Assembly (NCBI GenBank): GCA_025526935.1
Contig: JAHLKD010000120.1
Location: forward strand, 1-64,000
Direction of reading: 5' to 3'
From: Cladochytrium replicatum
Lineage: Eukaryota; Chytridiomycota; Chytridiomycetes; Cladochytriales; Cladochytriaceae
DNA: 64,000 nucleotides
Shown one piece after another: positions 4,433 through 31,862 of this stretch (positions within the stretch are counted from its first letter, which is position 1; every line of letters begins with the position of its first letter). The notes beneath the pieces are model-generated. The model saw only the letters and a list, made by a program, of their open reading frames with translations. It ran no database searches and was not told the DNA's origin. The translations under genes were made by a program, and so were the position numbers.

Positions 4433-5733
4433 TTGAACAGATTGTTTGCGATAGATTCGGTGGATTGAGTGTCTTGCCATAAATGGAGCGGATTGAACGA
4501 CGTAATCCCGATACCCGTCCTAAGATTTTTCATCCACTTCATCTCACGCGATAGTTTGTTCAATGCATACAGTTCGGCTTCCGACAACGAGGCTGCAATA
4601 GTAGTCTGTTGTCGAATTGACTGCCAACTGATTGCCGCATTAGCGAACATTACCACGTAACCGGTTTGTGAGTATCTATCTGCATCGCCCGCCCAGTCTG
4701 CATCAGCATAACCTTGTGGGTTGTTAGCCGAATCAAACGTGTAGAGACTGTTGGGTCTTAGCATTGGAGATGTGATACTAGTCCGTGTATAGTGTAAACC
4801 GTAATCCCAAGTACCGAGCAAATATTGTTGTAATCGATAGAGAGCCCTTGCTTCTGACTGTCAAGGATCAATCTGATGTTGTGCCAAACATTGACTGCGT
4901 ATGAAATATCCGGTCATGTTAGTCACCACGTACGATATCTTCATAAGCATTGATCGAAATTGTGTTGCCTCGGCATCAGACAGTGCTGGTGTGGTCTCAT
5001 CAAAGATGTATGATTTCGACATTGGTGTTTTTGGTCGGTTTGATGTTGGTACCGCATAAATTCGTTTCTTTGAGAATCTTCTTTACGTACAATGCATTGC
5101 TAAGGAAATATCCTTCCGTTGTCTGCAGTAACTCCATCTTCAGAATCCATTTCGCCTTCGAAGTACTGCCTACCGTGAACGAAGTCTCCAAATCAGTCTG
5201 AAACCGATGATATGCATTTGGATCTGTGGAAAAATGTAGTATGTCATCGACATGAATGGTGTGTTTGCCGGTATTATTTGTTGGATTGTATTGCCAGAAA
5301 TGACAGATATCTGCAATATTCCGCACAAAGCCGACACTAAGATATTGTTTCCAAAGAGTTCTGTACCATTCTCGAGCTGCCTGGTGTAGACTGTACAGAC
5401 TTTTGATAAGCTGCAGACGATGGGTCAATTCCGGAAATTGGTCCGAGACGTCCGAGACCATGTGGGAGTTCGACGTAGTTCTGTTCTTCCAGGATATGCA
5501 CCCTTGATATCAAACTGGAATATGATCATGGCGACTAATGCTTCTAATGCAATCAGAAAACGGATCGTGGACGTTTTCCTAACCGGAGAATAGGTTTCAT
5601 CAAGATCCAATCCTTCAATCTGTGAAAATCCTCGTACAACCCAACGTGCTTGGAATCGAGTAATGTTGCCATGTTCTTCAAGCTTGTATGTAAAAACCCA
5701 TTTTCCCGATAATAAATTCTGTCCATCAGGTAA

Positions 5734-6332
5734 TGTTAAGTATTTCGATTGATGGACTTGGCCAATCCAGTCATTGATAGTACAAAAACACAAACGCCCA
5801 ATATACAGAAATGCCACTCTTCACTGAGCAACATTTCTAACTATTGAACTAAAGCATATAGATGATGATCTATTACGAGTTTGGATACCTCCGGGTATTT
5901 CTTCATGGGTTATATTTATTGCGGCCATAGGTATAGTAAACTGTCATTACTTTTCTATCATCCACTTGTAGAAGTGAAGCCCGGATCAGATCACAGCAAA
6001 GGTTTACATATGATTAACGCGTTCATGGGAATCATGTGTGAGAACAATCCTGTTCAGGAGAGCTAGATCTCACGCACAGCTTAGCATGATTATGCTTCGC
6101 TACGCCTGTGAGAAGAAGAGTCAAACCTTATTGCTTCGATCCAGATCTTCCGGAAGGAAAAGCCAAAACGACAGTACACTTATTTAAGGAGCCTGTGGCG
6201 ATACACACAAGGAGCATTCTCTTGCGCTAGTACTTGTGACTCGCAATCTTCTTTATTCATCTCTTAGAAACATTAACCCGTGAATTAGCAACACACACAA
6301 CCTGAGGATCCAGACCACAGCTTTGTTCAACA
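5734..6332 (+). repeat. LTR of copia family A (isolated)
   Basis: A 599-bp LTR (TGTTAAGTATTTCG to GTTCAACA), plus orientation, very close to the LTRs of the intact element. The left flank (ggtaa) is family A RT sequence on the minus strand; the right flank (gtttc) is the coiled-coil gene fragment. The unequal flanks mean this is not a simple solo LTR. It more likely marks a recombination between two elements. Confidence 0.9.
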
Positions 6333-6719
6333 GTTTCAGAGCAGCAAGCTCTCCTTCCAGGGCAGTCACATGTGATTCCCATTGTGAAATCTCCTGGGAA
6401 ATTGCCTGCTTCTCCCTTTCCATTGCAGCGGTGATCTCCCTGAATCTTGCTTGCTCTTCGTGCTCGCTGTGCTGAATCAATGCACCCGCCCTGCCCAATT
6501 CATCAATGAGAGCCTTCTCTCGTTCATTGCCTTCTCTTCAAGATCTTTTGTCATGTTCAACAGTCGTTCTGACTGTTTGAGGACCTGTTTTGTCCTTTCA
6601 TGGTCCTCATCTGCTCGTTTGATGGTCGCTTGGAACTCGTCAACCTTTGCAGTGACAGGCATTCCTCTGTAAATGCCGTACTTGTGTCCCTGCCGCATGT
6701 AAAAGTCCAGAAATGTTGT
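6333..6719 (-). pseudogene. Fragment of the unrecognised coiled-coil gene, between two LTRs
   Basis: The minus strand matches about 390 bp of the gene at 26099-27782, from TTFLDFY to the GELAALK region (LDFYMRQGHKYG, MPVTAKVDEFQ, KQSERLLNMTKDLEE). It is trapped between LTR A copies at 5734-6332 and 6720-7312. It carries CGA (Arg) where the longer copy has a TGA stop (26769-26771), so it preserves the older codon. A small deletion after NERR shifts the frame. The right junction lies within the LDFY region, where an LTR A element entered the gene. Confidence 0.85.
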
Positions 6720-7312
6720 TGTTAAGTATTTCGATTGATGGACTTGGCCAATCCAGTCATTGATAGTACAAAAACACAAACGCGAGATATACAGAAATGT
6801 CACTCTTCACCGAGCAACATTTCTAACTATTGAACTAAAGCATATAGATGATGATCTATTACGAGTTTGGATACCTCCAGTTATTTCTTCATGGGTTATA
6901 TTTATTGCGGCCATAGTAAACTGTCATTACTTTTCTATCATCCAATTGTAGAAGTGAAGCCCGGATCAGATCAGAGCAAAGGTTTACATATGATTAACAC
7001 ATTTGTGGGAATCATGTGTGAGACCAATCCTGTTGAGGAGAGCTAGATCTCACGCACAGCTTAGCATGATTATGCTTCGCTACGCCTGTGAGAGGAAGAG
7101 TCAAACCTTATCGCTGCGATCCAGATCTTCCGGAAGGAAAAGCCAAAACAACAGTACACTTATTTAAGGAGCCTGTGGCGATACACACAAGGAGCATTCT
7201 CTTGCGCTAGCACTTGTGACCCGCAATCTTCTTTATTCATCTCTTAACAACATTAACCCGTGAATTAACAACACACACAACCTAAGGATCCAGACCACAG
7301 CTTTGTTCAACA
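6720..7312 (+). repeat. 5' LTR of a decayed plus-strand copia A element
   Basis: A 593-bp LTR directly followed by the family A leader (caatagttacgaatcg...) and its gag, so it is the 5' LTR of the copy at 7313-9756. Compared with other A LTRs it lacks a few bases and has several substitutions. A TATA-like TATTTAAG lies about 130 bp before its 3' end. The left flank (gttgt) is the coiled-coil gene fragment. Confidence 0.9.
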
Positions 7313-9756
7313 CAATAGTTACGAATCGTTGCTTAACACATTTCTTTGAACAACAATGACAAGATGGGTTCAGGATCAAACGACGCCACATCTTCGCGGC
7401 TGAAGCCATTCACCGGTAAAACGCTGCAGGATTTCGATCTGTACATGGAACAAGTGCAGACTTACGCAAACTTACGTGGCGGCACTGGCACTATGCTTCT
7501 CCAAGAACCAATGGCTCTTCCTGATAGTCCGAATTACGAAGCAGAAGGAAATCGCCCACAGCGTCCGATAGTCATCGCTGGAGCTGCTGGCGGAGCTGCT
7601 AACGAAGCATGAGCACAATGGGAAGCAGAACTACGTGAACATTTGGCGATCGTCACACACAACAGTCGCTTACGTACGCAATATCGTGCTGAGATGTAAG
7701 ATTACCGTGCACAACAAGCGGACAATAATGTCGCGGTTGGAATTCTATACGAATGTTTCCCAAAATGCGACATGAATCGAGTCAGAGCTTATGCGTCAGC
7801 AAAGAGCAAAGTCGATGGACTTCGCCAAATTTTCAGTGCTGGCGGTCAAGCTCCGATCGAATCGTCTATGTGGGAGCAACGGCTAGTAGATGTGAAATGT
7901 ACGAACAGTCAGTCGGCAGAAAGCGTTCAGCAGTTTGTGACCGACCTCACTGAGTTGTTCAAACTCAAACTGAACTCTTTACCTGACCGGCGTTAATACA
8001 AGATCCAATTGATGCTGCAAATCCGAATGCTCCGCGACCATTCCACCAAAAGCCAACGCATTACTTCGAAACAGTGTCAAATATCTTGACTGACCTCAAC
8101 CAATTGGTCCAACTCAACGTCACCATGGATGCCGGTGGGCCTAATGGGACAAAGAAGGATATGAAGGCAAAGGCAAAGAAAGCGAAGGCAAAAGCGAAAG
8201 CCAAGGTTGCGAAGTCGGAGGATATTTGTACCTTGCATCCGAACTCGTCTCACACCAATGCTCAATGCCGTAAGCAGTGTGCCTCTGGTGGCTCAGGCAG
8301 TAGCGGTGGGAGTAGCAGTTCCACTCGGACCAGGCAGTCGCAGGACTCCAGGTTGTCCACATCTTCTTCTGCAAAGAAGACAGATCTCACATGCAATTTC
8401 TGTGGCAAACGAGGACACAAGCAGTCGGCGTGTAAACGCTATCTCACTGCAAAGAGTCTTTGTTTAGACACGGATTTTCGTGCGTTCATTGCCAGCCGTG
8501 GCGATGCAGGCGATGATTCGTCGGAGGAAGAGTCTACCGCCAAACCGGTGTTGACCAAGAAGGTAATCTTTGACCTTACCCAACCTACTTCATGCTGACA
8601 TATACATCGGAAATATGTTTTCGATAGTGAACGCACACTCGGCACAGAAGGTTGTCCGTGTACATGTTCAAGCAAAGGATCAAGTGGGTTTGCTTGATAC
8701 AGGCGCAACTGTTTGGATGACACCTAATCGTCATGCCTTTAGTTCACTGACGTATACGAATGACGAGGACGTGGTGGAACTAGCGGATAGTCATACAATT
8801 CCAGTTTGTGGTTTTGGAGATGTATCTGTAGTTTTACCCAATGGGCGAATTAAGATAATACACAACGCACTTTATGTTCCTGATCTCGAAGACACACTTG
8901 CATCAGTGTGTAGTATCATTGGAGACTCCGGGGACATTGTGAGTTTCACCAAAGACAAGGTTATCCTCACGCATGGTGATACGGATGAAGACGTTATTAT
9001 TGGGCGACGGGAAAGAGATTTGTACTATCTCTATGCTGATGTTAGTACCGTCAGAACTCACCAACCGCGGCATGTGATTGCTCAACAAGCTAAAGCAGTA
9101 GCGGCATCTGCAGAAGATCTCGATCAGTCGAGGGACTTTACGTCTGGTGTACGATCTTCTTACGCGATGGGTCTCGATGTAATGTCAGACAACAGCATTC
9201 GTCAAACGAACGATGATGAATGTCAACGAGCATCTCAAGATACAGTTGGAGTGAGCACCAACTTATCGCCAGTGACAGTACACAAACTTGCAAAGTTACA
9301 CCAGCAGGTCACATCCACTTACGGACGATCTTTCGAACGGCAGAGAAGCTCAACATCAAAATGCCCAAGATTGAACCGGATGCATTCAATCTTGTCAACA
9401 AATCAATTATGCAGAATTGTTTGGTCTGTAGTCACACGAAGCTGAAGCAGAAGCCGATTTATTCTACAATAAGTCGAGCTCCGAGGAAACTTTTCTGTCT
9501 ATTTTCCGATGTCGCACGTTTAGTCTGCGACGGACAGAAAAAGAGATATTGGCAGATCATTGTCGACGAACAACCTCGTTTCATCACAATCTACTTCCTG
9601 AATCGAAAGAGTGATGCGGTGGATAGTATGATTTGACATATTGCTGATGTGGAAAATCGAAATCACCCATTACACGTTGCTGAACTACGTTCCGATTCAG
9701 GAGAATTGATTACGAAACGGTTGATCCAATGGTGCAATACCAAGATTCCTCGCATC
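7313..9756 (+). pseudogene. Copia family A copy: leader, gag, protease, part of integrase (decayed)
   Basis: This collinear copy of the intact element starts with the leader and the gag start at about 7355. Gag is broken by CGA to TGA (near 7610) and CAA to TAA (near 7697). A deletion of about 145 bp near 7990 removes the end of the gag core. The CCHC knuckle (CNFCGKRGHKQSAC) and the protease motif (DTGATVWMTPN) remain, followed by the start of integrase. Another CGA to TGA stop lies at about 9635, shared with the copies at 20999 and 29539. Homology ends abruptly at 9756, where an LTR of family B begins inside integrase. Confidence 0.92.
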
Positions 9757-10363
9757 TGTTGATGCATGCACATATATGGAACTAGCTACTCCAGTCTTCA
9801 TCCGCTACCGACACTGAGGGGAAATAGCCTTACCAGAGACGTCTGGGACAAGTTCATGCGTAATCATACATTACATGAAAGAACTGGCATTTCTAACTAT
9901 TGGTCATGAAGACATCCTCCTTTACTCATTGGAATCTAGTAGAGTTCTCAGAGTGATCACGCGTTTGAGAAAGAATGTGATGCTAATCAGTTTGCTGCTG
10001 ACAGTTATATCATACTCGAGTACATCTCGTATGATACTAATGTAAGGTACTACATATTTATTTCTCATAGAGAACATGTCATTGTAGACAAGATTATAGC
10101 TAATCTCCATGTTCTGCTCACAATGGTTATTGTGAACGATCACTGGGATCTATATCTCTCTATTCGAGAGAATAATGTTTATATTAGATATTTCCATAAA
10201 TCTATAGCCACAGGTTAATTATAAAAGCCGAAACGACAGTATATTTGAATTGTTTGCACAATTCAAAGAGCCTCTGGCGATATGAGATTTCGGGTGGCTG
10301 TTGCGCAAGAGCGTGATTGGAGAAACACGAAACTCTGCACACTCACAGATCAACCTGAGGACT
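9757..10363 (+). repeat. LTR of copia family B, 3' truncated
   Basis: Starts TGTTGATGCATGC, as does the complete family B LTR at 19632. It is cut at 10363 (after cctgaggact) by the LTR of the full family A element. It holds a TATA box (TATAAAA, about 10220-10226). Its left side joins family A integrase sequence. Confidence 0.88.
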
Positions 10364-10962
10364 TGTTGAACAAAGCTGTGGTCTGGATCCTCAGGTTGTG
10401 TGTGTTGCTAATTCACGGGTTAATGTTTCTAAGAGATGAATAAAGAAGTTTGCGAGTCACAAGTGCTAGCGCAAGAGAATGCTCCTTGTGTGTATCGCCA
10501 CAGGCTCCTTAAATAAGTGTACTGTCGTTTTGGCTTTTCCTTCCGGAAGATCTGGATCGAAGCGATAAGGTTTGACTCTTCTTCTCACAGGCGTAGCGAA
10601 GCATAATCATGCTAAGCTGTGCGTGAGATCTAGCTCTCCTCAACAGGATTGTTCTCACACATGATTCCCACGAACGCGTTAATCATATGTAAACCTTTGC
10701 TGTGATCTGATCCGGGCTTCACTTCTACAAGTGGATGATAGAAAAGTAATGACAGTTTACTATACCTATGGCCGCAATAAATATAACCCATGAAGAAATA
10801 ACTGGAGGTATCCAAACTCGTAATAGATCATCATCTATATGCTTTAGTTCAATAGTTAGAAATGTTGCTCAGTGAAGAGTGACATTTCTGTATATCGGGC
10901 GTTTGTGTTTTTGTACTATCAATGACTGGATTGGCCAAGTCCATCAATCGAAATACTTAACA
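10364..10962 (-). repeat. 3' LTR of the full family A element
   Basis: 599 bp, plus-strand ends TGTTGAAC and CTTAACA. It lies next to the polypurine tract (caccccctca on the plus strand at 10961 onward) that primes second-strand synthesis. It differs from the partner LTR at five positions. Confidence 0.94.
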
Positions 10963-11089
10963 CACCCCCTCAGTCATTAGATAGGTATAACCGAGAGTAT
11001 CACTCAACCGATCATAACTTTCTGTAAATGCTGAAGTTGATATTCTATTGAAATAAAGGTGAGTTGTATGGACATCGCCAGCCGGTCGT

Positions 11090-14000
11090 TCAAGATAGTA
11101 TATTAAGTGAAGACTGACTGACTAGCCCCAACGAGCCCCTGTGTTTAAGGTATAATTTACTTCCAAGAGGTTTAGTTAAGATGTCCGCGATCATATCAGA
11201 AGTATCCATATGGTGTAACTCCTGATGTTTCTGTTCAACTTGGAGATTCACAAATCTCTCGCGAACGTCCATGTGTTTGGTCCGTTTGTTGTTGAACAGA
11301 TTGTTTGCGATAGACTCGGTGGATTGATTGTCTTGCCATAAACGGAGCGGATTGAACGACGTAATTCCGATACCCGTCATAAGATTTTTCATCCACTTCA
11401 TCTCACGCGATAGTTCGTTCAGCGCATACAGTTCGGCTTCCGACGACGAGGCTGCAATAGTCTGTTGTCGAATCGACTGCCAACTGATTGCCGCATTAGC
11501 GAACATTACCACGTAACCGGTTCGTGAGTATCTATCTGCATCGCCTGCCCAGTCTGCATCGGCATAACCTTGTGGGTTGTTAGCCGAATCAAACATGTAG
11601 AGACCGTCGGGTCTTAGCATCGGAGACGTGATACCAGTCCGTGTATAGTGTAAACCGTAATCCCAAGTACCGAGTAAATATCGTTGTAATCGATAGAGAG
11701 CCTTTGATTCTGACTGTCGAGGATCAATCTGATGTTGTGCCAAAATATTGACTGCGTATGAAATATCCGGTCGTGTCTTAGTCGCCACGTACGATATCTT
11801 CATTAACATTGATCGAAATTGTGTTGCCTCGGCATCGGACAGTGTTGGTGTGGTCTCATCAAAGATATATGATTTTGACATCGGTGTTTTGGTCGGTTTG
11901 ATGTTGGTACCCCATAAATTCGCTTCTTCGAGAATCTTCTTTACGTACAATGCATTGCTAAGGAAATATCCTTCCGTTGTCTGCAATAACTCCATTTTCA
12001 GAATCCATTTCGCCTTCGAAGTACTGCCTACTGTGAACGAAGTTTCCAAATCGGTCTGAAACCGATGATATGCGTTTGGATCTGTGGAAAAATGTAGTAT
12101 ATCATCGACATGAACGGTAGTGTGTTCGCGGGTATTATTTGTTGGATTGTATCGCCAGAAATGACAGATGTCTGCAATATTCCGCACGAAACCAACACTG
12201 AGATATTGTTTCCAAAGAGTTTTGTACCATTCTCGAGCTGCCTGGTGTAGACCGTACAGACTTTTGATAAGTCTGCAGACGATGGGTCGATTCTGGAAAT
12301 CTACTCGTCCGAAACCATGAGGGAGTTCGACGTAGTTCTCTTCTTCCAGTATCGCATTGAGATATGCACCCTTGATATCAAACTGGAATATGATCATGCC
12401 GACTAATGCTGCTAATGCAATCAGAAAACGGATCGTGGACGTTTTCGTAACTGGAGAATAGGTTTCATCGAAATCCAATCCTTCAATCTGTGAAAATCCT
12501 CGTACGACCCAACGTGCTTTGAATCGAGTAATATTGCCATGTTCGTCAAGCTTATATGTGAAAACCCATTTGCCCGATAATAAATTCCGTCCATCAGGTA
12601 AAAACGTTTCGGCCCAAGTATTGTTGCCGACTAGTTGTGTAACTTCCTCCTTCATCGCCGCTAACCAGAATGGAGCCTCATCGGATCGTGATAAAGCCTC
12701 ACGAAGAGTCTTTGGTGCAGTCCGTATATTTCCATTCGCAATTGGTTGTGTTGGATATGAGGAATCGGCCTTCAGGGTCCAATCGATATTAGGAACGGAC
12801 CGGGTAAACAAGGAATTTTGTTTCCTTTTGGCGTTCGACAAATTTGCACTTGCTTGACGTTTTCGTTTTCTTGCTGCATACGCTTCGTTGACATCTTCTC
12901 CAATGAATTGAAGATCACTTTCGAGTTGTGCATCATATTCCTCTACAGGAGATACGGAAGACAAATTCGGAGATTCTTCAGTAATGGATTGTGGAGTCGA
13001 TAAATCAGCATTTGGATCATAATCAGCATCGTCTGGGTCATCATCGTCTAGTCCATGTAAATGTTCAACAACATGCATGTCACCGGCTTCTTCTAAGCGG
13101 TAATATATGGGGTCGTCGTTTATATCCTCATCGATTTCTTCGTCTGCAACGGTAGAAATCGGGAAATTGTCTGAGACAAACTCAACAGTCCTCTCTTGCA
13201 CCCCCTGATCCCCGGTTGGTATTTGATCAACATCGAAATATGTCCCGGCCTTCAGTGGATATTGTACCGTAAGATCGTCGAGTAACTGTCGGGTAGGATT
13301 ATAACCAACAAAAACTCCCTCGTGGAACGTAACATGGAAGTATTCGCCTATTGTGTTTGTCCGAAAATTGAGTGCTATGACGATCTTCAGGTCTTCACCC
13401 TTGTATCCGAGAAACAGACCTAGTTCAGACTTGTCTCGGATTCTGCGCGCCAACCTTTGTTCGTGTGAGATCCACAAACTAACGAGTGTTCCAAAGGCGT
13501 GGATAGTTGCCAAATCTATCCGCTTGTCAAGGTAAGCACAGTACGGAATCGCATTCACAGCTGAATGGAAAGTAGCGTTCTTGACGACCGCAGCGTATAG
13601 GATGGAGAGTTGCACGAATTGAAGTGTTCGTGGTAGTCCAGCTTGTAGCAGCATCGCGTCCGACATATACTTGATCGATTGTATATTCCGCTCTGATAGA
13701 CCATCGAGTTCCTTTACTGACGGAGGAGCTGGGTGGACGTGGATGCGAGGAATCTTGGTATTGCACCATTGGATCAACCGTTTAGTAATCAATTCTCCTG
13801 AATCGGAACGTAGTTCAGCAACATGTAATGGGTGATTGCGATTTTCCACATCAGCGATATGTCGAATCATACTATCCACCGCATCACTCTTTCGATTCAG
13901 GAAGTAGATTGTGATGAAACGAGGTTGTTCGTCGACAATGATCTGCCAATATCTCTTCTTCTGTCCGTCGTAGATTAAACGTACGACATCGGAAAACAGA

Positions 14001-16291
14001 CGGAAAAGTTTCCTCGGAGCTCGACTTATTGTAGAATAAATCGGCTTCTGCTTCAGCTTCGTGCGACTACAGACCAAACAATTCTGCATAATTGATTTGT
14101 TGACAAGATTGAATGCATCCGGTTCAACCTTGGGCATTTTGATGTTGAGCTTCTCTGCCGTTCGAACGATTGTCCGTAAGTGGATGTGACCAAACTGCTG
14201 GTGTAACTTTGCAAGTTCGTGTACTGTCACTGGCGATAAGTTGGTGCTCACTCCAACTGTATCTTGAGATGCTCGTTGACATTCATCATCGTTCGTTTGA
14301 CGAATGTTGTTGTCTGACATTACATCGAGACCCATCGCGTGAGAAGATCGTACACCGGACGTAAAGTCCATCGACTGATCGAGACCTTCTGCGGATACCG
14401 CTACTGCTTTAGCTCGTTGAGCAATCGCATGCCGCGGTTGGTGAGTTCCGACGGTACTAACATCAGCATAGAGATAGTACAAATCTCTTTCCCGTCGCCC
14501 AATAATAACGTGTTCATCCGTATCACCATGCGTGAGGATAACCTTGTCTTTGGTGAAACTCACAATGTCCCCGGAGTCTCCAATGATACTACACACTGAT
14601 GCAAGTGTGTCTTCGAGATCAGGAACATAAAGTGCGTTGTGTATTATCTTAATTCGCCCATTGGGTAAAACTACAGATACATCTCCAAAACCACAAACTG
14701 GAATTGTATGACTATCCGCTAGTTCCACCACGTCCTCGTCATTCGTATACGTCAGCGAACTAAAGGCATGACGATTAGGTGTCATCCAAACAGTTGCGCC
14801 TGTATCAAGCAAACCCACACGATCCTTTGCTTGAACATGTACACGGACAACCTTCTGTGCCGAGTGTGCGTTCACTATCGAAAACATATTTCCGATGTAT
14901 GTGTCAGCATCTTTATCAACAGAAGTAGGTTGGGTAAGGTCAAAGATTACCTTCTTGGTCAACACCGGTTTGGCGGTAGATTCGTCCTCCGACGAATCAT
15001 CACCTGCATCGCCACGGCTGGCAATGAATGCACGAAAATCCGTGTCTAAACAAAGACTCTTTGCAGTGAGATAGCGTTTACACGCCGACTGCTTGTGTCC
15101 TCGTTTGCCACAGAAATTGCATGTGAGATCTGTCTTCTTTGCAGAAGAAGATGTGGACGACCTGGAGTCCTGCGACTGCCTGGTCCGAGTGGAACTGCTA
15201 CTCCCACCGCTACTGCCTGAGCCACCCGAGGCACCCTGCTTACGGCATTGAGCATTGGTGTGAGATGAGTTCGGATGCAAGGTACAAATATCCTCCGACT
15301 TCGCAACCTTGGCTTTCGCTTTCGCCTTCGCTTTCTTCGCCTTTGCCTTCATGGCCTTCTTTGTCCCATTCGGCCCACCGGCATCCATGGTGACGTTGAG
15401 TTGGACCAATTGGTTGAGGTCGGTCAAGATATTTGACACTGTTTCGAAGTAATGCGTTGGCTTTTGGTGGAATGGTCGCGGAGCATTCGGGTTTGCAGCA
15501 TCAATTGGATCTTGTATTAACGCCGGTTCCCATTCGGCATACGCAGAAGTGATCATTTTTCCGAGAAAAGGTACGAGGGTCCGTAGTTCAATTGTCTGCA
15601 TCGTGATTTTTGCGACTAACCGGTTTAGTAGATCCTTGATTACGAGTTCGTCCGGTAAAGAGTTCAGTTTGAGTTCGAATAACTCAGTGAGGTCGGTCAC
15701 AAACTGCTGAACGCTTTCTGCCGACTGACCGTTCGTACATTTCAGATCTACCAGCCGTTGCTCCCACATAGACGATTCGATCGGAGCTTGACCGCCAGCA
15801 CTGAAAATTCGGCGAAGTCCATCGACTTTGCCTTTTGCTGACGCATAAGCTCTGACTCGATTCATGTCGCGTTTTGGGAAACATTCGCATAGAATTCCAA
15901 CTGCGACGTTATTGTCCGCTTGTTGTGCACGGTAATCTTGCATCTCAGCACGATATTGCGTACGTAAGTGACTGTTGTGTGTGACGATCGCCAAATGTTC
16001 ACGTAGTTCTGCTTCCCATTGTGCTCGTGCTTCGTTAGCAGCTCCGCCAGCAGCTCCGGCGATGACTATCGGACGCTGTGGGCGATTTCCTTCCGCCTCG
16101 TAATTCGGATTATCAGGAAGAGCCATTGGTTCTTGGAGAAGCATAGTGCCAGCGCCGCCACGTAAGTTTGCGTAAGTCTGCACTTGTTCCATGTACAGAT
16201 CGAAATCCTGCAGCGTTTTACCGGTGAATGGCTTCGGCCGCGAAGATGTGGTGTCATTCGATCCTGAACCCATCTTGTCGTTGTTGTCCAA
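11090..16291 (-). CDS. Copia gag-pol polyprotein, family A (intact)
   Basis: The frame has 1733 codons without a frameshift between gag and pol. Rough residue positions: gag 1-380; lysine-rich linker; CCHC knuckle CNFCGKRGHKQSAC at about 390; aspartic protease DTGATVW at about 495; integrase zinc domain with HQQFGHIH (about 700) and CLVC (about 740), then the RNase H-like core with RSDSGE (about 830); reverse transcriptase with FDIKGAYLNA and the catalytic HVDDI (about 1395, HVDD in place of the common YVDD); RNase H with DADWAGDADRYSRTGY (about 1585) and EAELYALNE. The product should form cytoplasmic virus-like particles, copy the genomic RNA and integrate the cDNA. Start at 16291 is the first Met 33 bp inside the LTR boundary. 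Gag and Pol share one frame, so their ratio must be set after translation or by splicing. Confidence 0.95.
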   Translation of the reverse strand: MDNNDKMGSGSNDTTSSRPKPFTGKTLQDFDLYMEQVQTYANLRGGAGTMLLQEPMALPDNPNYEAEGNRPQRPIVIAGAAGGAANEARAQWEAELREHLAIVTHNSHLRTQYRAEMQDYRAQQADNNVAVGILCECFPKRDMNRVRAYASAKGKVDGLRRIFSAGGQAPIESSMWEQRLVDLKCTNGQSAESVQQFVTDLTELFELKLNSLPDELVIKDLLNRLVAKITMQTIELRTLVPFLGKMITSAYAEWEPALIQDPIDAANPNAPRPFHQKPTHYFETVSNILTDLNQLVQLNVTMDAGGPNGTKKAMKAKAKKAKAKAKAKVAKSEDICTLHPNSSHTNAQCRKQGASGGSGSSGGSSSSTRTRQSQDSRSSTSSSAKKTDLTCNFCGKRGHKQSACKRYLTAKSLCLDTDFRAFIASRGDAGDDSSEDESTAKPVLTKKVIFDLTQPTSVDKDADTYIGNMFSIVNAHSAQKVVRVHVQAKDRVGLLDTGATVWMTPNRHAFSSLTYTNDEDVVELADSHTIPVCGFGDVSVVLPNGRIKIIHNALYVPDLEDTLASVCSIIGDSGDIVSFTKDKVILTHGDTDEHVIIGRRERDLYYLYADVSTVGTHQPRHAIAQRAKAVAVSAEGLDQSMDFTSGVRSSHAMGLDVMSDNNIRQTNDDECQRASQDTVGVSTNLSPVTVHELAKLHQQFGHIHLRTIVRTAEKLNIKMPKVEPDAFNLVNKSIMQNCLVCSRTKLKQKPIYSTISRAPRKLFRLFSDVVRLIYDGQKKRYWQIIVDEQPRFITIYFLNRKSDAVDSMIRHIADVENRNHPLHVAELRSDSGELITKRLIQWCNTKIPRIHVHPAPPSVKELDGLSERNIQSIKYMSDAMLLQAGLPRTLQFVQLSILYAAVVKNATFHSAVNAIPYCAYLDKRIDLATIHAFGTLVSLWISHEQRLARRIRDKSELGLFLGYKGEDLKIVIALNFRTNTIGEYFHVTFHEGVFVGYNPTRQLLDDLTVQYPLKAGTYFDVDQIPTGDQGVQERTVEFVSDNFPISTVADEEIDEDINDDPIYYRLEEAGDMHVVEHLHGLDDDDPDDADYDPNADLSTPQSITEESPNLSSVSPVEEYDAQLESDLQFIGEDVNEAYAARKRKRQASANLSNAKRKQNSLFTRSVPNIDWTLKADSSYPTQPIANGNIRTAPKTLREALSRSDEAPFWLAAMKEEVTQLVGNNTWAETFLPDGRNLLSGKWVFTYKLDEHGNITRFKARWVVRGFSQIEGLDFDETYSPVTKTSTIRFLIALAALVGMIIFQFDIKGAYLNAILEEENYVELPHGFGRVDFQNRPIVCRLIKSLYGLHQAAREWYKTLWKQYLSVGFVRNIADICHFWRYNPTNNTREHTTVHVDDILHFSTDPNAYHRFQTDLETSFTVGSTSKAKWILKMELLQTTEGYFLSNALYVKKILEEANLWGTNIKPTKTPMSKSYIFDETTPTLSDAEATQFRSMLMKISYVATKTRPDISYAVNILAQHQIDPRQSESKALYRLQRYLLGTWDYGLHYTRTGITSPMLRPDGLYMFDSANNPQGYADADWAGDADRYSRTGYVVMFANAAISWQSIRQQTIAASSSEAELYALNELSREMKWMKNLMTGIGITSFNPLRLWQDNQSTESIANNLFNNKRTKHMDVRERFVNLQVEQKHQELHHMDTSDMIADILTKPLGSKLYLKHRGSLGLVSQSSLNILS

Positions 16292-16324
16292 AGAAATGTG
16301 TTAAGCAACGATTCGTAACTATTG

Positions 16325-16923
16325 TGTTGAACAAAGCTGTGGTCTGGATCCTCAGGTTGTGTGTGTTGCTAATTCACGGGTTAATGTTTCTAAGAGATGA
16401 ATAAAGAAGATTGCGAGTCACAAGTACTAGCGCAAGAGAATGCTCCTTGTGTGTATCGCCACAGGCTCCTTAAATAAGTGTACTGTCGTTTTGGCTTTTC
16501 CTTCCGGAAGATCTGGATTGAAGCGATAAGGTTTGACTCTTCTTCTCACAGGCGTAGCGAAGCATAATCATGCTAAGCTGTGCGTGAGATCTAGCTCTCC
16601 TCAACAGGATTGTTCTCACACATGATTCCCACGAACGCGTTAATCATATGTAAACCTTTGCTGTGATCTGATCCGGGCTTCACTTCTACAAGTGGATGAT
16701 AGAAAAGTAATGACAGTTTACTATACCTATGGCTGCAATAAATATAACCCATGAAGAAATAACCGGAGGTATCCAAACTCGTAATAGATCATCATCTATA
16801 TGCTTTAGTTCAATAGTTAGAAATGTTGCTCAGTGAAGAGTGACATTTCTGTATATCGGGCGTTTGTGTTTTTGTACTATCAATGACTGGATTGGCCAAG
16901 TCCATCAATCGAAATACTTAACA
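16325..16923 (-). repeat. 5' LTR of the full family A element
   Basis: 599 bp, partner of 10364-10962. A TATA-like TATTTAAGG (minus strand, near 16475) lies about 150 bp upstream of the leader side and is the likely promoter of the gag-pol RNA. Plus-strand sequence immediately to the right is family B integrase. Confidence 0.93.
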
Positions 16924-19546: not shown

Positions 19547-19631
19547 TACATACATTACCAACAAACAGACGTGCGGCTCAACGCTCATACCAATATCCTC
19601 ATTGTCTACCGCAGCTTTGACTGCAGGGGTG

Positions 19632-20312
19632 TGTTGATGCATGCACATATATGGAACTAGCTACTCCAGTCTTCATCCACTACCGACACTGAGGGGAAAT
19701 AGCCTTACCAGAGACGTCTGGGACAAGTTCATGTGTAATCATACATTACATGAAAGAACTGGCATTTCTAACTATTGGTCATGAAGACATCCTCCTTTAC
19801 TCATTGGAATCTAGTAGAGTTCTGAGAGTGGTCACGCGTTTGAGAAAGAATGTGATGCTAATCAGTTTGCTGCTGACAGTTATATCATACTCGAGTACAT
19901 CTCGTATGATACTAATGTAAGGTACTACATATTTATTTCTCATAGAGAACATGTCATTGTAGACAAGATTATAGCTAATCTTCATGTTCTGCTCACAATA
20001 ATTATTGTGAACGATCACTGGGATCTATATCTCTCTATTCGAGAGAATAATCTTTATATTAGATATTTCCATAGATCTATAGCCACCGGTTAATTATAAA
20101 AGCCAAAACGACAGTATATTTGAATTGTTTGCAAAATTCAAAGAGCCTGTGGCGATATGAGATTTCGGGTGGCTGTGGCGCAAGAGCGTGATTGGAGAAA
20201 CACGAAACTCTGCACATACACAGATCAACCTGAGGACTATCTCTAGCGCAAGTCCCAGATCAGCAGCACTTAAACTGATCAAATCACATCGCCCTCAAAC
20301 CAAACTTCGACA
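19632..20312 (+). repeat. LTR of copia family B (3' LTR, complete)
   Basis: About 681 bp, starting TGTTGATGC directly after the polypurine tract of the family B pol and ending near CTTCGACA. The 3' end is set by where homology with family A resumes (caaagacaagg, protease region). A TATA box TATAAAAG lies near 20095. The right neighbour is a family A protease region, not unique DNA. Confidence 0.85.
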
Positions 20313-22661
20313 AAGACAAGGTTATCCTCACGCATGGTGATACAGATGAACACGTTATTATTGGGCGACGGGAAAGAGATTTGTACTATCTCTATGCTGA
20401 TGTTAGTACCGTCGGAACTCACCAACCGCGGCATGTGATTGCTCAACGAGCTAAAGCAGTAGCGGTATCCTCAGAAGATCTTGATCAGTCGATGGACTTT
20501 ACGTCCGGTGTACGATCTTCTTACGCGATGGGTCTCGATGTAATGTCAGACAACAGCATTCGTCAAACGAACGATGATGAATGTCAACGAGCATCTCAAG
20601 ATACAGTTGGAGTGAGCACCAACTTATCGCCAGTGACAGTACACAAACTTGCAAAGTTACACCAGCAGTTTGGTCACATCCACTTACGGACGATCTTTCG
20701 AACGGCAGAGAAGCTCAACATCAAAATGCCCAAGGTTGAACCGGATGCATTCAATCTTGTCAACAAATCAATTATGCAGAATTGTTTGGTCTGTAGTCGC
20801 ACGAAGCTGAAGCAGAAGCCGATTTATTCTACAATAAGTCGAGCTCCGAGGAAACTTTTCCGTCTATTTTCCGATGTCGCACGTTTAGTCTGCGACGGAC
20901 AGAAAAAGAGATATTGGCAGATCATTGTCGACGAACAACCTCGTTTCATCACAATCTACTTCGTGAATCGAAAGAGTGATGCGGTGGATAGTATGATTTG
21001 ACATATTGCTGATGTGGAAAATCGCAATCACCCATTACACGTTGCTGAACTACGTTCCGATTCAGGAGAATTGATTACGAAACGGTTGATCCAATGGTGC
21101 AATACTAATATTCCTCACATCCGCGTCCACCCAGCTCCTCCGTCAGTAAAGGAACTCGATGGTCTATCAGAGCGGAATATACAATCGATCAAGTATATGT
21201 CGGACGCGATGCTGCTACAAGCTGGACTACCACGAACACTTCAATTCGTGCAACTCTCCATCCTAAACGCTGCAGTCGTCAAGAACGCTACTTTCCATTC
21301 AGCTGTGAATGCGATTCCGTAGTGTGCTTACCTCGACAAGCGGATAGATTTGGCAACTATCCACGCCTTTGGAACACTCATTAGTTTGTGGATCTCACAC
21401 GAACAAAGGTTGGTGGGCAGAATCCGAGACAAGTCTGAACTAGGTCTGTTTCTCGGATACAAGGGTGAAGACCTGAAGATCGTCATAGCACTCAATTTTC
21501 GGACAAACACAGTAGGCGAATACTTCCATGTTACGTTCCACGAGGGAGTTTTTGTTGGTTATAATCCTACCCAACAGTTACTCAACGATCTTACGGTGGA
21601 ATATCCACTGAAGGCCGGGACATATTTCGATGTTGATCAAATACCAACCGGGGATCAGGGGGTGCAAGAGACGACTGTTGAGTTTGTCTCGGACAATTTC
21701 CCGATTTCTACCGTTGCAGACGAAGAAATCGATGAGGATACGAACGATGACCCCATATATTACCGCTTAGAAGAAGCCGGTGACAGAACATTTACATGGA
21801 CTAGACGATGATGACCCAGACGATGCTGATTACGATCCAAATGCTGATTTATCGACTCCACAATCCATTACTGAAGAATCTCCGAATTTGTCTTCTGTAT
21901 CTCCTGTAGAGGAATATGATGCACAACTCGAAAGTGATCTTCAATTCATTGGAGAAGATGTCGATGAAGCGTATGCAGCAAGAAAACGAAAATGCCAAGC
22001 AAGTGCACATTTGTCGAACGCCAAAAAGAAACGTAATTCCTTGTTTACCTGATCCGTTCCTAATATCGATTGGACCCTGAAGGCCGATTCCTCATATCCA
22101 ACACAACCAATTGCGAATGGAAATTTACGGACTGCATCAAAGACTCTTCGTGAGGCTTTATCACGATCCAATGAGGCTCCATTCTGGTTAGTGGCGATGA
22201 AGGAGGAAGTCACACAACTAGTCGGCAACAATACTTGGGCCGAAACGTTTTTAGGAATTTATTATCGGGCAAATGGGTTTTCACATATAGCTTGACGAAC
22301 ATGGCAATATTACTCGATTCAAAGCACGTTGGGTCGTACGAGGATTTTCGCAGATTGAAGGATTGGATTTCGATGAAACCTATTCTCCAGTTACGAAAAC
22401 GTCCACGATCCGTTTTCTGATTGCATTAGCAGCATTAGTTGGCATGATCATATTCCAGTTTGATATCAAGGGTGCATATCTCAATGCGATACTGGAAGAA
22501 GAGAACTACATCGAACTCCCTCATGGTTTCGGACGAGTAGATTTCCGAAATTGACCCATCGTCTGCAGACTTATCAAAAGTCTGTACGGTCTACACCAGG
22601 CAGCTCGAGAATGGTACAAAACTCTTTGGAAACAATATCTCAGTGTTGGTTTTGTGAGGAA
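20313..22661 (+). pseudogene. Copia family A copy: protease end to RT start (decayed)
   Basis: Collinear with the intact element from the protease-integrase boundary to the early RT domain. Stops include CGA to TGA at 20999 and 22552, a TGA near 22050 where the copy at 30.6 kb has CGA, and TAC to TAG at 21322. A short deletion with frame change occurs near 22250. The FDIKGAYLNAILEEENY block is intact. Homology ends at about 22661, where the hAT element begins inside RT. Most premature stops are C to T at CpG. Confidence 0.92.
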
Positions 22662-22756
22662 TAGGATTCTGTCCACCAGGGCACTTTCTCAACTCATTGA
22701 CGTACTTCAGTTATCTCTACCCAGTACAACTAACCTCTATCAATGTTACTAGCAAT
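22662..22756 (+). repeat. Left terminal inverted repeat of the hAT element
   Basis: About 95 bp: taggattctgtccacc, then cactttctcaactcattgac, then gtacttcag and cctctatcaatgttactagc. It is the inverted counterpart of each unit in the array at 25359-25827. It is followed by a weak second start (aatacgattctgt), possibly a remnant of a further unit. Confidence 0.85.
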
Positions 22757-25957: not shown

Positions 25958-26098
25958 CAGTTTCTTCCCTAGCTTATTATTATTTTCAGATCAGGTAGAA
26001 AACTATAGTGTCAGGGAAGTATTATAGAATACATTCCTGTAAAATTCCGGCTAAGAACACCGGGCCAGTATCTTCCCACGACAAACAGTACAAACACC

Positions 26099-27782
26099 AT
26101 GCCTCAAACTACAAAGAAGCAAGCGTTAAAACAATCCAGACCATCATCTGAAAGAGAATCAAGTGCAGAACCTGTGACTGCACCTGAAACATCTCTGGGA
26201 TCAGGTTCTGAAGTGGAAGAAGCAGAAGTTGGCCTTGATGTCCAATCGACAGATGTCAAATCGACAGCTCCTTCAAAGAAACCGGCGCGACGTGGTACTA
26301 AAGGGGATGCTGACTATTTGCTCATCAATGGACTCTGTCCTGCTTCAGACATACGACTTTGGTATCGAAAATTCAAAGCAAGCGGCCACAGCTACGACTC
26401 GGAGGACTTCATCAGCAACTGTCAAACAAAATCGTGATGAATGCGGCCCAAGATTTGTTCTTCAAAGGTTGATCGACCGACTTAACTCTGACAGCAAGCT
26501 AGTTCGTCAAGCCCTGAAGGGAATCCACGATAAATGCAGTGGACGAACGGAGTTCATAACAGCAGCAAACGCCTATCGTATGGAGTGCTTGAAAAGCTCT
26601 TCCTTTCAGAAGGAAACAACATTTCTGGACTTTTACAGGCGGCAGGGACACAAGTACGGCATTTACAGAGGAATGCCTGTCACTGCAAAGGTTGACGAGT
26701 TCCAAGCGACCATCAAACGAGCAGATGAGGACCGTGAAAGGACAAAACAGGTCCTCAAACAGTCAGAATGACTGTTGAACATGACAAAAGATCTTGAAGA
26801 GACTGCAATGAACGAGAGAAGGACCCGCATCGCAGCAGAAGTGCGAGAGAAGGCTCTCATTGATGAATTGGGCAGGGCGGGTGCATTGATTCAGCACGGC
26901 GAGCACAAAGAGCCAGCAAGATTCAGGGAGATCACTGCTGCAATGGAAAGGGAGAAGCAGGCAACTTCCCAGGAGATTTCACAATGGAAATCACGTGTGA
27001 CCGCCCTGGAGGGAGAGCTTGCTGCTCTGAAACGACAGGCTGGTCATTCAGAAGCTGCAGCACCTGCGGCGCCAACATCAACAGGCGGCCTAATAAGCAT
27101 ATTGTCGGCTATCAAGGGGATTGGTAGAATTCTGAAGGTACATCGAACCAGTTCTCCAACGAGTTCCCTTGCATTGCTTAGCCTGCAGCAGCACTGTCGT
27201 ACGGCTATCCTTTTGGTGAAAGAGGTCATCCAGGGTATCTGCTTCCAGATGCATAAGATCAATGAGGTTATTTATGACCTTAAACTGCCGTCTCTTCCAC
27301 CATCAATCAAGTACATCAACGTAAACTACGAAGTCCTCTCCCGAAATGAGTTTTTACGGCCCATATTTGTTGAATCAGACGACCGCTCAAGCCGAATATC
27401 AACTTCAAGTAGCAGTTCTCGGAGCAGCCTTACTCTTCTTAGGGTGCACATTTTGCTCGGAAACTGGATACGGCACAATAATTCGCCAAGTACGTCTGCC
27501 ACTATCTATCGCATGTTCAGGGCATTAGTGGATGCTTATCCTTCTGAGTGGCTAAGGTTCTGGACGTTATACATCGGGCATCTTTTGTCCATAACGCTCC
27601 CTGAGGTGGATTGGAAACCTTGGAAGACAGGTTTAGCCAAGGATTTCATGCTTTCAAATGACGACATTGATCGGTTCATCAGGACTGGGTTGGCGAAGGA
27701 CGTAACCAGTGGTGGATGGGACTCTGACAATATGAACCAGATACAGAAGCTGATTTGGGCTGTTCCACCTATCAACTTGTGA
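26099..27782 (+). pseudogene. Unrecognised repetitive coiled-coil gene (one frameshift, one stop)
   Basis: It codes for a protein of about 560 residues that I do not recognise. The first part (26099 to about 26430) is Ser/Glu-rich and basic. The frame then shifts by one near 26425. A helical section of about 150 residues with heptad-like Glu/Lys/Arg spacing follows (VDEFQATIKRADEDRE, then NMTKDLEETAMNERR). The C-terminal 230 residues are more hydrophobic (IKGIGRILKV, FWTLYIGHLLSITLPE). The TGA at 26769-26771 replaces CGA kept in the fragment at 6333-6719, so the stop is a CpG transition. At least two copies exist in the window, both inside the transposon nest, so it is probably mobile or element-borne. 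It has no zinc, RT, integrase or transposase motif. A hAT-type terminal repeat stands 142 bp upstream. Confidence 0.6.
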
Positions 27783-27899
27783 TTGGAGTTTTGTTTCTTT
27801 TTACGATAGTGTTTCTAAAATACACACTGTCCACACAGACACAAAGTGTTCATGTTAATATCCGTGGTCTAACTCAAAATTCAATCAATCCTCTCCTGG

Positions 27900-28078
27900 G
27901 CAGCAAAAACCCGGCGGGTCAGGGTCGGGTACGGGTTTCAACCACTTCGGGTCCGGGTATTCCCTTTGTACCTGTCAGTGACCAGGCGGGTCCCCAGATA
28001 AACACGACCCGACCCAAAGGATTTGGTGCGGGTCACCACTGAAGCCCGGACCCGACCCGGACCCGCCGAACCTTATCT
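27900..28078. other. GGGTC/GACCC-rich palindromic segment, possible hAT-like MITE end
   Basis: About 180 bp where gggtc/gggta motifs on the left half (cggcgggtcagggtcgggta) are mirrored by gaccc motifs on the right half (acccgacccggacccgcc). The base composition is far more GC-rich than the surroundings. Subterminal arrays of this kind are common in hAT elements and derived MITEs. It separates the coiled-coil gene from an LTR B remnant. No coding sense is seen, and assignment to an element is inference. Confidence 0.45.
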
Positions 28079-28087
28079 GCGAGTGAA

Positions 28088-28567
28088 CAGGCGTTTGAGA
28101 AAGAATGTGATGCTAATCAGTTTGCTGCTGACAGTTATATCATACTCGAGTACATCTCGTATGATATTAATGCAAGGTACTACATATTTATTTCTCATAG
28201 AGAACATGTCATTGTAGACAAGATTATAGCTAATCTCCATGTTCTGCTCACAATGGTTATTGTGAACGATCACTGGGATCTATATCTCTCTATTCGAGAG
28301 AATAATGTTTATATTAGATATTTCCATAAATCTATAGCCACAGGTTAATTATAAAAGCCGAAACGATAGTATATTTGAATTGTTTGCACAATTCAAAGAG
28401 CCTCTGGCGATATGAGATTTCAGGTGGCTGTGGCGCAAGAGCGTGATTGGAGAAACATGAAACTCTGCAATTACACAGATCAACCTGAGGACTATCTCTA
28501 GCGCAAATCCCAGATCAGCAGCACTTAAAGTGATCAAATCACATCACCCTCAAACCAAACTTTGACA
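28088..28567 (+). repeat. LTR of copia family B, 5' truncated
   Basis: Matches the last two thirds of the LTR at 19632-20312, starting at gcgtttgagaaagaatg and ending CTTTGACA, with the TATAAAAG box near 28350. It joins family A protease sequence (aaggatcatgtggg) at its 3' end, another A/B junction. Confidence 0.87.
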
Positions 28568-31500
28568 AAGGATCATGTGGGTTTGCTTGAAACAGGCGCA
28601 ACTGTTTGGATGACACCTAATCGTCATGCCTTTAGTTCACTGACGTATACGAATGACGAGGACGTGGTGGAACTAGCAGATAGTCATACAATTCCAGTTT
28701 GTGGTTTTGGAGATGTATCTGTAGTTTTACCCAATGGGCGAATTAAGATAATACACAACGCACTTTATGTTCCTGATCTCGAAGACACACTTGCATACTT
28801 GCATCAGTGTGAAGTATCATTGGAGACTCCGGGGACATTGTGAGTTTCACCAAAGACAAGGTTATCCTCACGAATGGTGATACGGGTGAACACGTTATTA
28901 TTGGGCGACGGGAAAGAGATTTGTACTATCTCTATGCTGATGTTAGTACCGTCGGAACTCACCAACCGCCGCATGTGATTGCTCAACAAGCTAAGGCAGT
29001 AGCGGTATCCGCAGAAGATCTCGATCAGTCGATGGACTTTACGTCCGGTGTACGATCTTCCTACGCAATGGGTCTCGATGTAATGTCAGACAACAGCATT
29101 CGTCAAACGAACGATGATGAATGTCAACGAGCATCTCAAGATACAGTTGGAGTGAGCACCAACTTATCGCCAGTGACAGTACACAAACTTGCAAAGTTAC
29201 ACCAGCAGTTTGGTCACATCCACTTACGGACGATCTTTCGAACAGCAGAGAAGCTCAACATCAAAATGCCCAAGATTGAACCGGATGCATTCAATCTTGT
29301 CAACAAATCAATTATGCAGAATTGTTTGGTCTGTAGTCGCACTAAGCTGAAGCAGAAGCCGATTTATTCTACGACAAGTCGAGCTCCGAGGAAACTTTTC
29401 CGTCTGTTTTCCAATGTCGTACGTTTAGTCTACGATGGACAGAAGAAGAGATATTGGCAGATCATTGTCGACGAACAACCTCGTTTCATCACAATCTACT
29501 TCCTGAATCAAAAGAGTGATGCGGTGGATAGTATGATTTGACATATCGCTGATGTGGAAAATCGCAATCACCCATTACACGTTGCTGAACTACGTTCCGA
29601 TTCAGGAGAATTGATTACTAAACGGTTGATCCAATGGTGCAATACCAATATTCCTCGCATCCGCGTCCACCCAGCTCCTCTGTCAGTAAAGGAACGCGGT
29701 GGTCTATCAGAGCGGAATATACAATCGATCAAGTATATGTCGGACGCGATGCTGCTACAAGCTGGACTACCACGAACACTTTAATTCGTGCAACTCTCCA
29801 TCCTATACGCTGCAGTCGTCAAGAACACTACTTTCCATTCAGCTGTGAATGCGATTCCGTACTGTGCTTACCTTGACAAGCGGATAGATCTGGCAACTAT
29901 CCACGCCTTTGGAACACTCGTTAGTTTGTGGATCTCACACGAACAAAGGTTGGCGCGCAGAATCCGAGATAAGTCTGAATTAGGTCTGTTTCTCGGATAC
30001 AAGGGTGAAGACCTGAAGATCGTCATAGCACTCAATTTTCGGACAAACACAATAGGTGAATACTTTCATGTTACGTTCCACGAGGGAGTTTTTGTTGGTT
30101 ATAGTCCTACCGGACAGTTACTCGACAATCTTACGGTACAATATCCACTGAAGACCGGGACATATTTCGATGTTGATCAAATACCATCTGGGGATCAGGG
30201 GGTGCAAGAGACAACTGTTGAGTTTGTCTCAGACAATTTCCCGATTTCTACCGTTGCAGACGAAGAAATCGATGAGGATACGAATGACGACCCCATATAT
30301 TACCGCTTAGAAGAAGCCGGTGACAGAACATTTACATGGACTAGACGATGATGACCCAGACGATGCTGATTACGATCCAAATGCTGATTTATCGACTCCA
30401 CAATCCATTACTGAAGAATCATCTCCGAATTTGTCTTCCGTATCTCCTGTAGAGGAATATGATGCACAACTTGAAAGTGATCTTCAATTCATTGGAGAAG
30501 ATGTCGACGAAGCGTATGCAGGAAGAATACAAAAACGCCAAGCAAGTGCAAATTTGTCAACCGCCAAAGAAACGTAATTCCTTATTTACCCGATCCGTTC
30601 CTAATATCGATTGGGCCCTGAAGGCCGATTCCTCATATCCAACACAACCAATTGCGAATGGAAATTTACGCACTGCACCAAAGACTCTTCGTGAGGCTTT
30701 ATCACGATCCGATGAGGCTCCATTCTGGTTAGCGGCGATAAAGGAGGAAGTCACACAACTAGTCAGCAACAATACTTGGGCCGAAACGTTTTTAGGAATT
30801 TATTATCAGGCAAATGGGTTTTCACATATAAGCTTGACGAACATGGCAATATTACTCGATTCAAAGCACGCTGGGTCGTACGAGGATTTTCACAGATTGA
30901 AGGATTGGATTTCGATGAGACCTATTCTCCGGTTACGAAAACGTCCACGATCCGTTTTCTGATTGCATTAGAAGCATTAGTCGGCATGATCATATTCCAG
31001 TTTGATATCAAGGGTGCATATCTCAATGCAATACTGGAAGAAGAGAACTACGTCGAACTCCCTCGTGGTTTCGGACGAGTAGGTTTCCGGAATTGACCCA
31101 TCGTCTGCAGACTTATCAAAAGTCTGTGTGGTCTTCTACACCAGGCAGCTCGAGAATTGTACAAAACTCTTTGGAAACAATATCTTAGTGTTGGCTTTCC
31201 GGAATTGACCCATCGTCTGCAGACTTATCAAAAGTCTGTGTGGTCTTCTACACCAGGCAGCTCGAGAATTGTACAAAACTCTTTGGAAACAATATCTTAA
31301 TGTTGGCTTCGTGCGGAATATTGCAGACATTTGTCATTTCTGGCGATACAATCCAACAAATAATGCCTGCGAACACACTACCGTTCATGTCGATGACATA
31401 CTACATTTTTCCACAGATCCAAACGCACATCATTGGTTTCAGACTGATTTGGAGAATTCGTTCACAGTGGGCAGTACTTCGAAGGCGAAATGGATTCTGA

Positions 31501-31862
31501 AGATGGAGTTATTGCAGATAACGGGAGGATATTTCCTTAGCAATGCATTGTACTTAAAGAAGATTCTTAAAGAAGCAAGTTTATGGGGTACCAACATCAA
31601 ACCGACCAAAACTCCGATGTCGAAATCATATATCTTTGATGAGACCACACCAGCACTGTCTGATACCAAGGCAACACAATTTTGATCAATGCTAATGAAG
31701 ATATCGTACGTGGTGACTAAGACACGACTAGATATTTCATACGCAGTCAATATTTTGGCACAACATCAGATTGATCCTTGACAGTCAGAAGCAAAAGCTC
31801 TCTATCGATTACAGCAATATTTACTCGGTACTTGGGATCAGGGTTTACACTATACACGGACT
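28568..31862 (+). pseudogene. Copia family A copy: protease to early RNase H (decayed)
   Basis: Collinear with the intact element from the protease motif (GATVWMTPN) through integrase and RT (FDIKGAYLNAILEEENYVE, HVDDILHFS) to the RNase H entry (YLLGTWD-equivalent). Lesions include a small duplication near 28797, CGA to TGA stops at 29539, 31095, 31683 and 31783, CAA to TAA at 29782, a small deletion near 30790 and a 112-bp tandem duplication at 31084-31307. At 31862 it changes without a gap into family B gag sequence. Confidence 0.92.
31084..31307 (+). repeat. 112-bp direct duplication inside copia A RT
   Basis: Positions 31084-31195 and 31196-31307 are the same RT segment repeated head to tail with about one base difference (cttag versus cttaa). 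The intact element has it once. Near identity means the duplication is younger than most other lesions in this copy, or possibly an assembly artefact. Confidence 0.85.

Follow-up and report, generated by a model that had tools for sequence, protein, structure and literature searches.

Retrotransposon copies in the chytrid Cladochytrium replicatum carry many premature stop codons, which were described from the sequence alone (hereafter the original prediction) as almost all CGA-to-TGA changes, and the question that they raise is whether such repeats decay through methylation of CpG cytosines followed by deamination or through a CpG-targeting process resembling repeat-induced point mutation (RIP). 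The stretch analysed, called the window below, comprises 64,000 nucleotides of GenBank assembly GCA_025526935.1 (contig JAHLKD010000120.1, positions 1 to 64,000 of the forward strand; G000:C120:1-64000 in our notation), from a genome of 50.5 Mb in 198 contigs. It holds several copies of one retrotransposon family, copia A, and the copy with an open frame at 11090-16291 served as the reference for the others in the window. We consider it very likely that the repeats lose CpG mainly because of predicted CpG methylation and the gradual deamination that would follow from it.

CpG transitions and stops in copia A copies

Compared with the open-frame element, the window copies (>86% identity, at least 250 bp) had C>T changes at 7-21% of CpG sites and at 0-5% of other cytosines. 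For the counts of singleton changes, a sample of copies was retrieved by similarity to one kilobase of the element or to adjoining DNA, the best matches being taken, and this way of sampling favours young copies; that kilobase of the element is matched at 100% (rounded) in at least 40 places, the window's own included. Alignments shorter than 250 bp, below 86% identity, or more than half overlapped by a longer one were left out, as were sites that were covered by fewer than four copies or at which the other copies disagreed, and also L001 (the window itself), L009-L014 and L035-L036. A singleton change was polarized only where every other copy agreed. A first set of 24 alignments was enlarged to 46, of which 35 were young (at least 99% identical) and 11 older. 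In the enlarged set, young copies had singleton C>T changes at 28/8,357 CpG sites and at 9/27,994 CpA, CpC and CpT (together CpH) sites, and older copies had them at 90/1,412 and 43/4,786, an excess at CpG of 10-fold and 7-fold, respectively. C>T rates were therefore not equal across dinucleotide contexts, and the CpG excess that had been predicted from the stops stands on these counts of all transitions, which are stronger evidence than the stops themselves; the rate at CpA was about equal to those at CpC and CpT, with no CpA preference.

These changes accumulated in proportion to age. The ratio of CpG changes to transversions was 28:18 in young and 90:67 in older copies (Fisher p 0.74, no age difference), and CpG changes followed transversions over an approximately twenty-fold range of transversions per site (calculated by hand). 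Evenness among the copies of the enlarged set was not rejected (permutation p 0.13 for young and 0.11 for older copies). The strands were balanced as well: older copies among the first 24 alignments had 42 C>T and 50 G>A changes at CpG, interleaved and read in the element's sense.

In the element's frame, the window copies carry 17 stops, comprising 12 CGA>TGA, one CGG>TGA, two CAA>TAA and two transversions, and the first 24 alignments carry 18 (13, one, two and two). Since CGA>TGA makes up 13 of these 18 stops and 7 of the 12 distinct codon sites, "mostly" is the appropriate word, and "almost all" was too strong. The excess is not a mere matter of opportunity, because among the 32 CGA, 47 CAA, 34 CAG and 22 TGG codons of the frame, stops arose at 7/32 CGA but only 2/81 CAA and CAG codons (Fisher p 0.002), and at 0/22 TGG codons. 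All nine CGA>TGA stops that had been listed are present (4861, 7610, 9634, 20999, 22552, 29539, 31094, 31683 and 31779, the last having been placed at 31783), together with CAA>TAA at 7697 and 29782 and a transversion stop at 21320; CGA>TGA at 4914, 5425 and 31206 can be added, as can a second transversion, at 28810. The TGA at 22050 faces CGA in a sister copy, as had been noted, and CGG in the open-frame element, and the TGA at 26769 in a coiled-coil repeat faces CGA in all three aligned copies that cover the site.

Descent accounts for part of this list. The three copies with a stop at codon 810 have five non-CpG changes in common, the pair with stops at 4861 and 31779 has seven, and the copies with stops at 22552 and 31094 have eleven; because shared stops accompany shared non-CpG changes, there were fewer mutation events than stops. 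The proposal of sharing by descent is supported for these groups and is less certain for some carriers of a stop at codon 1335, since the copies at 4433-5733 and 20311-22663 have two CpG changes and no others in common, so that independent repeated hits at this codon may have occurred. Because their two alignments overlap on the element, the stops at 31094 and 31206 are probably one event.

Other repeats, genes and the base before CpG

To the window we added the starts of 20 odd-numbered contigs (200 kb), in which 40 of 259 repeat pairs outside copia A were kept and 219 were left out as overlapping. In pairs of at least 97% identity, the difference rate was 0.077 at CpG and 0.012-0.017 in other contexts (71/917 vs 88/6,351, or 5.6-fold when calculated by hand), and in pairs of 80-90% identity the CpG excess was 3.27-fold; the effect was also present in a hAT transposase region. 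As a gene control, positions 50-58 kb of the window were compared with two stretches of a paralogue on contig C81 (83-84% identity), giving CpG differences at 118/614 sites against 242/2,006 for other sites. This ratio of 1.59 is well below the 3.27 of the 80-90% repeats (z 4.1). An effect limited to repeats had been expected; it is stronger in repeats, with a weaker excess in paralogous genes.

The ratio of observed to expected CpG points to the same difference. Across the window and the 20 contig starts it was 0.67 in repeats other than copia A (80 kb), 1.13 in copia A (47 kb) and 0.90 in DNA not repeated within the sample (137 kb), a weak proxy for single-copy DNA. The open-frame copia A element stands at 1.15 and its frame at 1.22. 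Within the window, four old repeat stretches fell to 0.40-0.48 and three gene-bearing stretches remained at 0.97-1.03, and the genic block for which one paralogue was found at 83-84% lay at 0.86-1.05.

The base that precedes the CpG also matters in repeats. C>T changes in older copia A copies were found at 28/275 CCG, 34/494 TCG, 18/405 ACG and 10/238 GCG sites. When YCG (pyrimidine first) was tested against RCG (purine first) over five strata, namely young copia A, older copia A and other repeats of at least 97, 90-97 and 80-90% identity, the pooled odds ratio was 1.99 (heterogeneity p 0.95), with a p of 1.4e-8 that is somewhat generous, as the counts are of sites rather than lineages and the two copia A strata share one element. 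YpCpG is thus preferred about two-fold over RpCpG in repeats, and five pairs below 80% identity, outside the pooled test, point in the same direction (12/26 vs 5/15). The preference, given here as YCG vs RCG in young and then older copia A copies, was seen at synonymous sites (8/1,639 vs 1/1,144; 26/246 vs 10/186), at non-synonymous sites (8/2,696 vs 4/2,156; 27/420 vs 11/321) and in long terminal repeats (LTRs) and other non-frame sequence (5/120 vs 1/204; 8/72 vs 5/97), and was reversed at the few CpG sites where a change makes a stop (0/161 vs 1/237; 1/31 vs 2/39). No such preference was found for pyrimidine over purine before the C of CpH (5/14,514 vs 4/13,480 in young and 23/2,426 vs 20/2,360 in older copies) or in the genes (55/306 vs 52/261, odds ratio 0.88), which differ from repeats in this respect (z 3.3). 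CCG did not differ clearly from TCG (odds ratio 1.23, p 0.15), and TCG was not preferred over the other NCG contexts.

The YpCpG preference could possibly be attributed to (i) the flank preference of the methylating enzyme, (ii) repair or (iii) photochemistry at dipyrimidines. Ultraviolet (UV) light is known to cause deamination at methylated dipyrimidines (PMC4245940), and this is one possible source. A UV origin found no support among double changes, as CC/TT doubles numbered 8 against about 4 expected in the other repeats, and in copia A, with an expectation of 0.2, CC>TT did not rank in the 15 most frequent doubles. We tentatively suggest, with slightly less than even confidence, that the process is YpCpG-specific in repeats and not in genes, with C and T about equivalent before CpG, and likewise A and G. 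Such a methyl-CpG signature in a fungus would differ from the TpCpG known in Microbotryum and would reflect either the bases that DNMT5, a DNMT1-family enzyme or both prefer next to CpG, or light damage at 5-methylcytosine dipyrimidines; light is the weaker form of this suggestion because there is no clear CC>TT excess. Among the papers listed by a literature search, none was recognizable by title as a fungal YpCpG study, which does not show that the context is unpublished.

Methyltransferase genes and competing explanations

The methyltransferase domain PF00145 has six matches in the genome, which we read as four genes on contigs C140, C119, C25 and C10. The gene on C140 is a relative of the Cryptococcus DNMT5 enzyme 7r76 (621 residues, E 6e-170), and the exon on C119 that carries the PCQ motif is closest to DNMT1 structures (E 2e-10); the exon upstream of this catalytic part had no match among solved structures. 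From these matches, the genome is predicted to encode a CpG maintenance methyltransferase, DNMT5, together with a DNMT1-family domain. Motif VI reads NV in all four genes, and the QT or ET of the RID/Masc1 type was found in none of them (0/4), in an exon-wise search that could miss a much-split gene. The remaining two genes, at C25:340831-342025 and G000:C10:367063-367200, are DNMT2-like, their tested exons being closest to DNMT2-type structures. The genome encodes a radial-spoke protein (E 3e-47) and matches the fungal chitin-synthase N-domain seven times, which indicates a flagellated (zoosporic) fungus and not a basidiomycete; the suggested parallel with basidiomycetes did not hold, the context also being YpCpG rather than TpCpG.

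In the mechanism that we propose, repeats would be kept CpG-methylated, most likely by DNMT5 helped by the DNMT1-family enzyme, and 5-methylcytosine would change to T faster, or be less well repaired, than cytosine. Each inserted copy would then lose CpG to TpG and CpA at a nearly steady rate, some 7-10 times that of C>T changes elsewhere. Stops would fall mostly at CGA because it is this codon that a single CpG transition turns into a stop. Methylation with deamination fits because the changes are specific to CpG, proportional to age, balanced between strands and stronger in repeats, and because a CpG maintenance enzyme is predicted; the pattern resembles gradual chemical loss in methylated repeats more than it does a mutation defence at work.

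Several observations weigh against this explanation. Part of the CpG effect is not repeat-specific, since genes show an excess too, and this extends to their third codon positions (29/104 vs 52/286, ratio 1.5) and to sequence outside the listed exons (80/366 vs 162/1,255, ratio 1.7, calculated by hand). Single-copy DNA outside long frames gave observed/expected CpG of 0.95, 0.86 and 0.63 in pieces of 204, 1,170 and 256 bp, although these 1,630 bp, from the gene-bearing stretches, are too short to judge the CpG content of unique intergenic DNA. No RFD domain passed the cut-off genome-wide and no BAH match was found at C119, so the DNMT1-family gene there stays unclassified. Finally, the first 24 alignments showed a mild unevenness among young copies (p 0.016 and 0.037) that was no longer significant with 46, and one of the 35 young alignments, L008 (G000:C113:2328-6328), has six CpG singletons and no others (binomial 0.006).

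The burst-like look of L008, and of a second young copy, L004, with five CpG changes and one other, would suit a RIP-like process in which repeats recognized by homology undergo enzymatic C>T mutation at CpG, in a burst, during the sexual cycle, and mutation that is stronger in repeats and at CpG would suit it as well. However, CpG changes track transversions, homogeneity is not rejected over 46 alignments (the burst hinted at by 24 was not upheld), motif VI reads NV in the four methyltransferase genes found, and the genic block with one paralogue found keeps its observed/expected CpG at 0.86-1.05; we regard such a process as improbable. Of the two mechanisms that the original prediction had offered, methylation with deamination is thus supported, indirectly, and the RIP-like alternative is not. 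Ordinary CpG hypermutability throughout the genome, hidden in genes mainly by selection, would explain the 1.5-1.7 excess in genes, third positions and non-exonic sequence included, but leaves unexplained why repeats of similar identity show roughly double the effect, why CpG stays near expectation in gene-bearing stretches and falls so far in old repeats, and why the YpCpG preference is absent from genes; this, too, seems very unlikely to be the main cause. A cytidine deaminase that edits retrotransposon cDNA as it is being reverse-transcribed can give rise to both C>T and G>A changes, yet the strands are balanced, the same CpG effect is present in the hAT transposase region and other repeats, and CpG is not known to be the context of cDNA editors, which leaves this origin barely credible.

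Features of the window and known systems

The copies and other features on which the counts rest are collected in Table 1.

Table 1. Copia A copies, other repeats and the gene-bearing control in the window; identities and C>T counts of the copia A copies are relative to the open-frame copia A element.
Feature	Position	Strand	Identity and remarks	C>T at CpG	Other C>T
Copia A element	10364..16923	-	Uninterrupted 1,733-codon frame 11090-16291; comparison sequence		
LTRs of open-frame element	10364-10962, 16325-16923	-	599 bp each		
Decayed copia A LTR	3617..4209	-	94.3% to element's LTR; counts vs 5' LTR	5/38	3/204
Decayed copia A internal part	4433..5733	-	92.1%; CGA>TGA at 4861, 4914, 5425	29/170	7/397
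Copia A LTR	5734..6332	+	98.7%	3/38	0/206
Decayed copia A copy, LTR and internal	6720..9756	+	Two alignments, 95.8% and 96.6%; stops 7610, 7697, 9634	17/149 and 16/220	
Decayed copia A copy	20311..22663	+	96.3%; stops 20999, 21320, 22050, 22552	23/297	9/760
Decayed copia A copy	28566..31864	+	Overlapping alignments 28566-31205 (95.2%) and 31196-31864 (93.0%); stops 28810, 29539, 29782, 31094, 31206, 31683, 31779	27/321 and 16/76	
Older element B	16924..20310		66% to copia A over 18042-19416; CpG observed/expected 0.48 over 16924-19546		
Repeat with coiled-coil frame 26775-27782	26417..28075		TGA at 26769		
Old repeat	44001..46000		Matched dozens of times across many contigs, mostly at 73-89%; CpG observed/expected 0.40		
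Gene-bearing control	47101..58000		CpG observed/expected 0.97; partly collinear paralogue on C81, 69-84%		

Element B flanks or contains copia A copies in the window (9757-20310) and in L019, L022 and L031, and the window has B-A-B junctions at 10363/10364 and 16923/16924. The arrangement suggests that copia A inserted against or inside element B, in a nested or targeted manner, or that there was a shared duplication. An 811-codon open frame at 22891-25326 contains a hAT transposase dimerisation domain. A telomere-like 10-base repeat, (CCCTAACTAA)n, i.e., (TTAGTTAGGG)n, was present at 6 of the 20 contig starts fetched (L020, L025, L026, L028, L033 and L034), and a short degenerate interstitial array of it lies at about 47036-47089 of the window; the literature entries listed for this unit looked unrelated, judging by title and the start of the abstract. 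The gene-bearing control includes an isoleucyl-tRNA synthetase (exon 54570-54947 tested) and, near 51-52 kb, what we take to be a DNAJC3-like TPR gene. The block at 47001-58000 has its paralogue at G000:C81:211858-251493, partly collinear and partly rearranged at 69-84% identity, as if left by an old genome duplication or hybridisation.

Context counts that use transversions as a clock indicate that repeats in a fungus of a group for which a survey reported no RIP (PMC6572847) still decay quickly at CpG, and they offer a route, from sequence only, to distinguish gradual damage through methylation from a mutation defence that is actively at work. The YpCpG preference would be a testable property of the methylation machinery of this lineage.

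The closest parallels are systems of transposon CpG methylation. According to the available text of the respective papers, 5-methylcytosine is confined to transposons in the chytrid Spizellomyces (PMC12695648), CpG-only C>T signatures in the transposons of three RID-less genomes that have a Masc2-type DNMT1 are attributed to methylation by this enzyme (PMC4352252), and in basidiomycetes DNMT1 with RFD, together with DNMT5, goes with CG methylation (PMC7862722). The present case is alike in its CpG C>T signature in transposons and its DNMT5 gene, and differs in the YpCpG preference, in a DNMT1-family gene without a detected RFD and in being known from sequence alone. In Microbotryum and other Pucciniomycotina, retrotransposons undergo RIP-like hypermutation at TpCpG (PMC5381629; Horns et al. 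2012, via the citing portions of PMC5381629, PMC4352252 and PMC4014442); the target contains CpG in both cases, whereas here CCG is mutated at least as often as TCG, the fungus is flagellated and the evidence for a burst is limited to L008. The portion of PMC6572847 at hand gives QT or ET as motif VI of RID/Masc1, lists no RID among 37 chytrid enzymes and reports no RIP in a chytrid survey by base composition, RIPCal and the RID gene. Classical RIP in Neurospora is similar in that C>T changes in repeats create stops, and differs from what we find, which is CpG rather than CpA targeting, no RID-type motif VI found and changes in proportion to age. The kind of process is known, and the YpCpG context is the part of it that is worth a second look.

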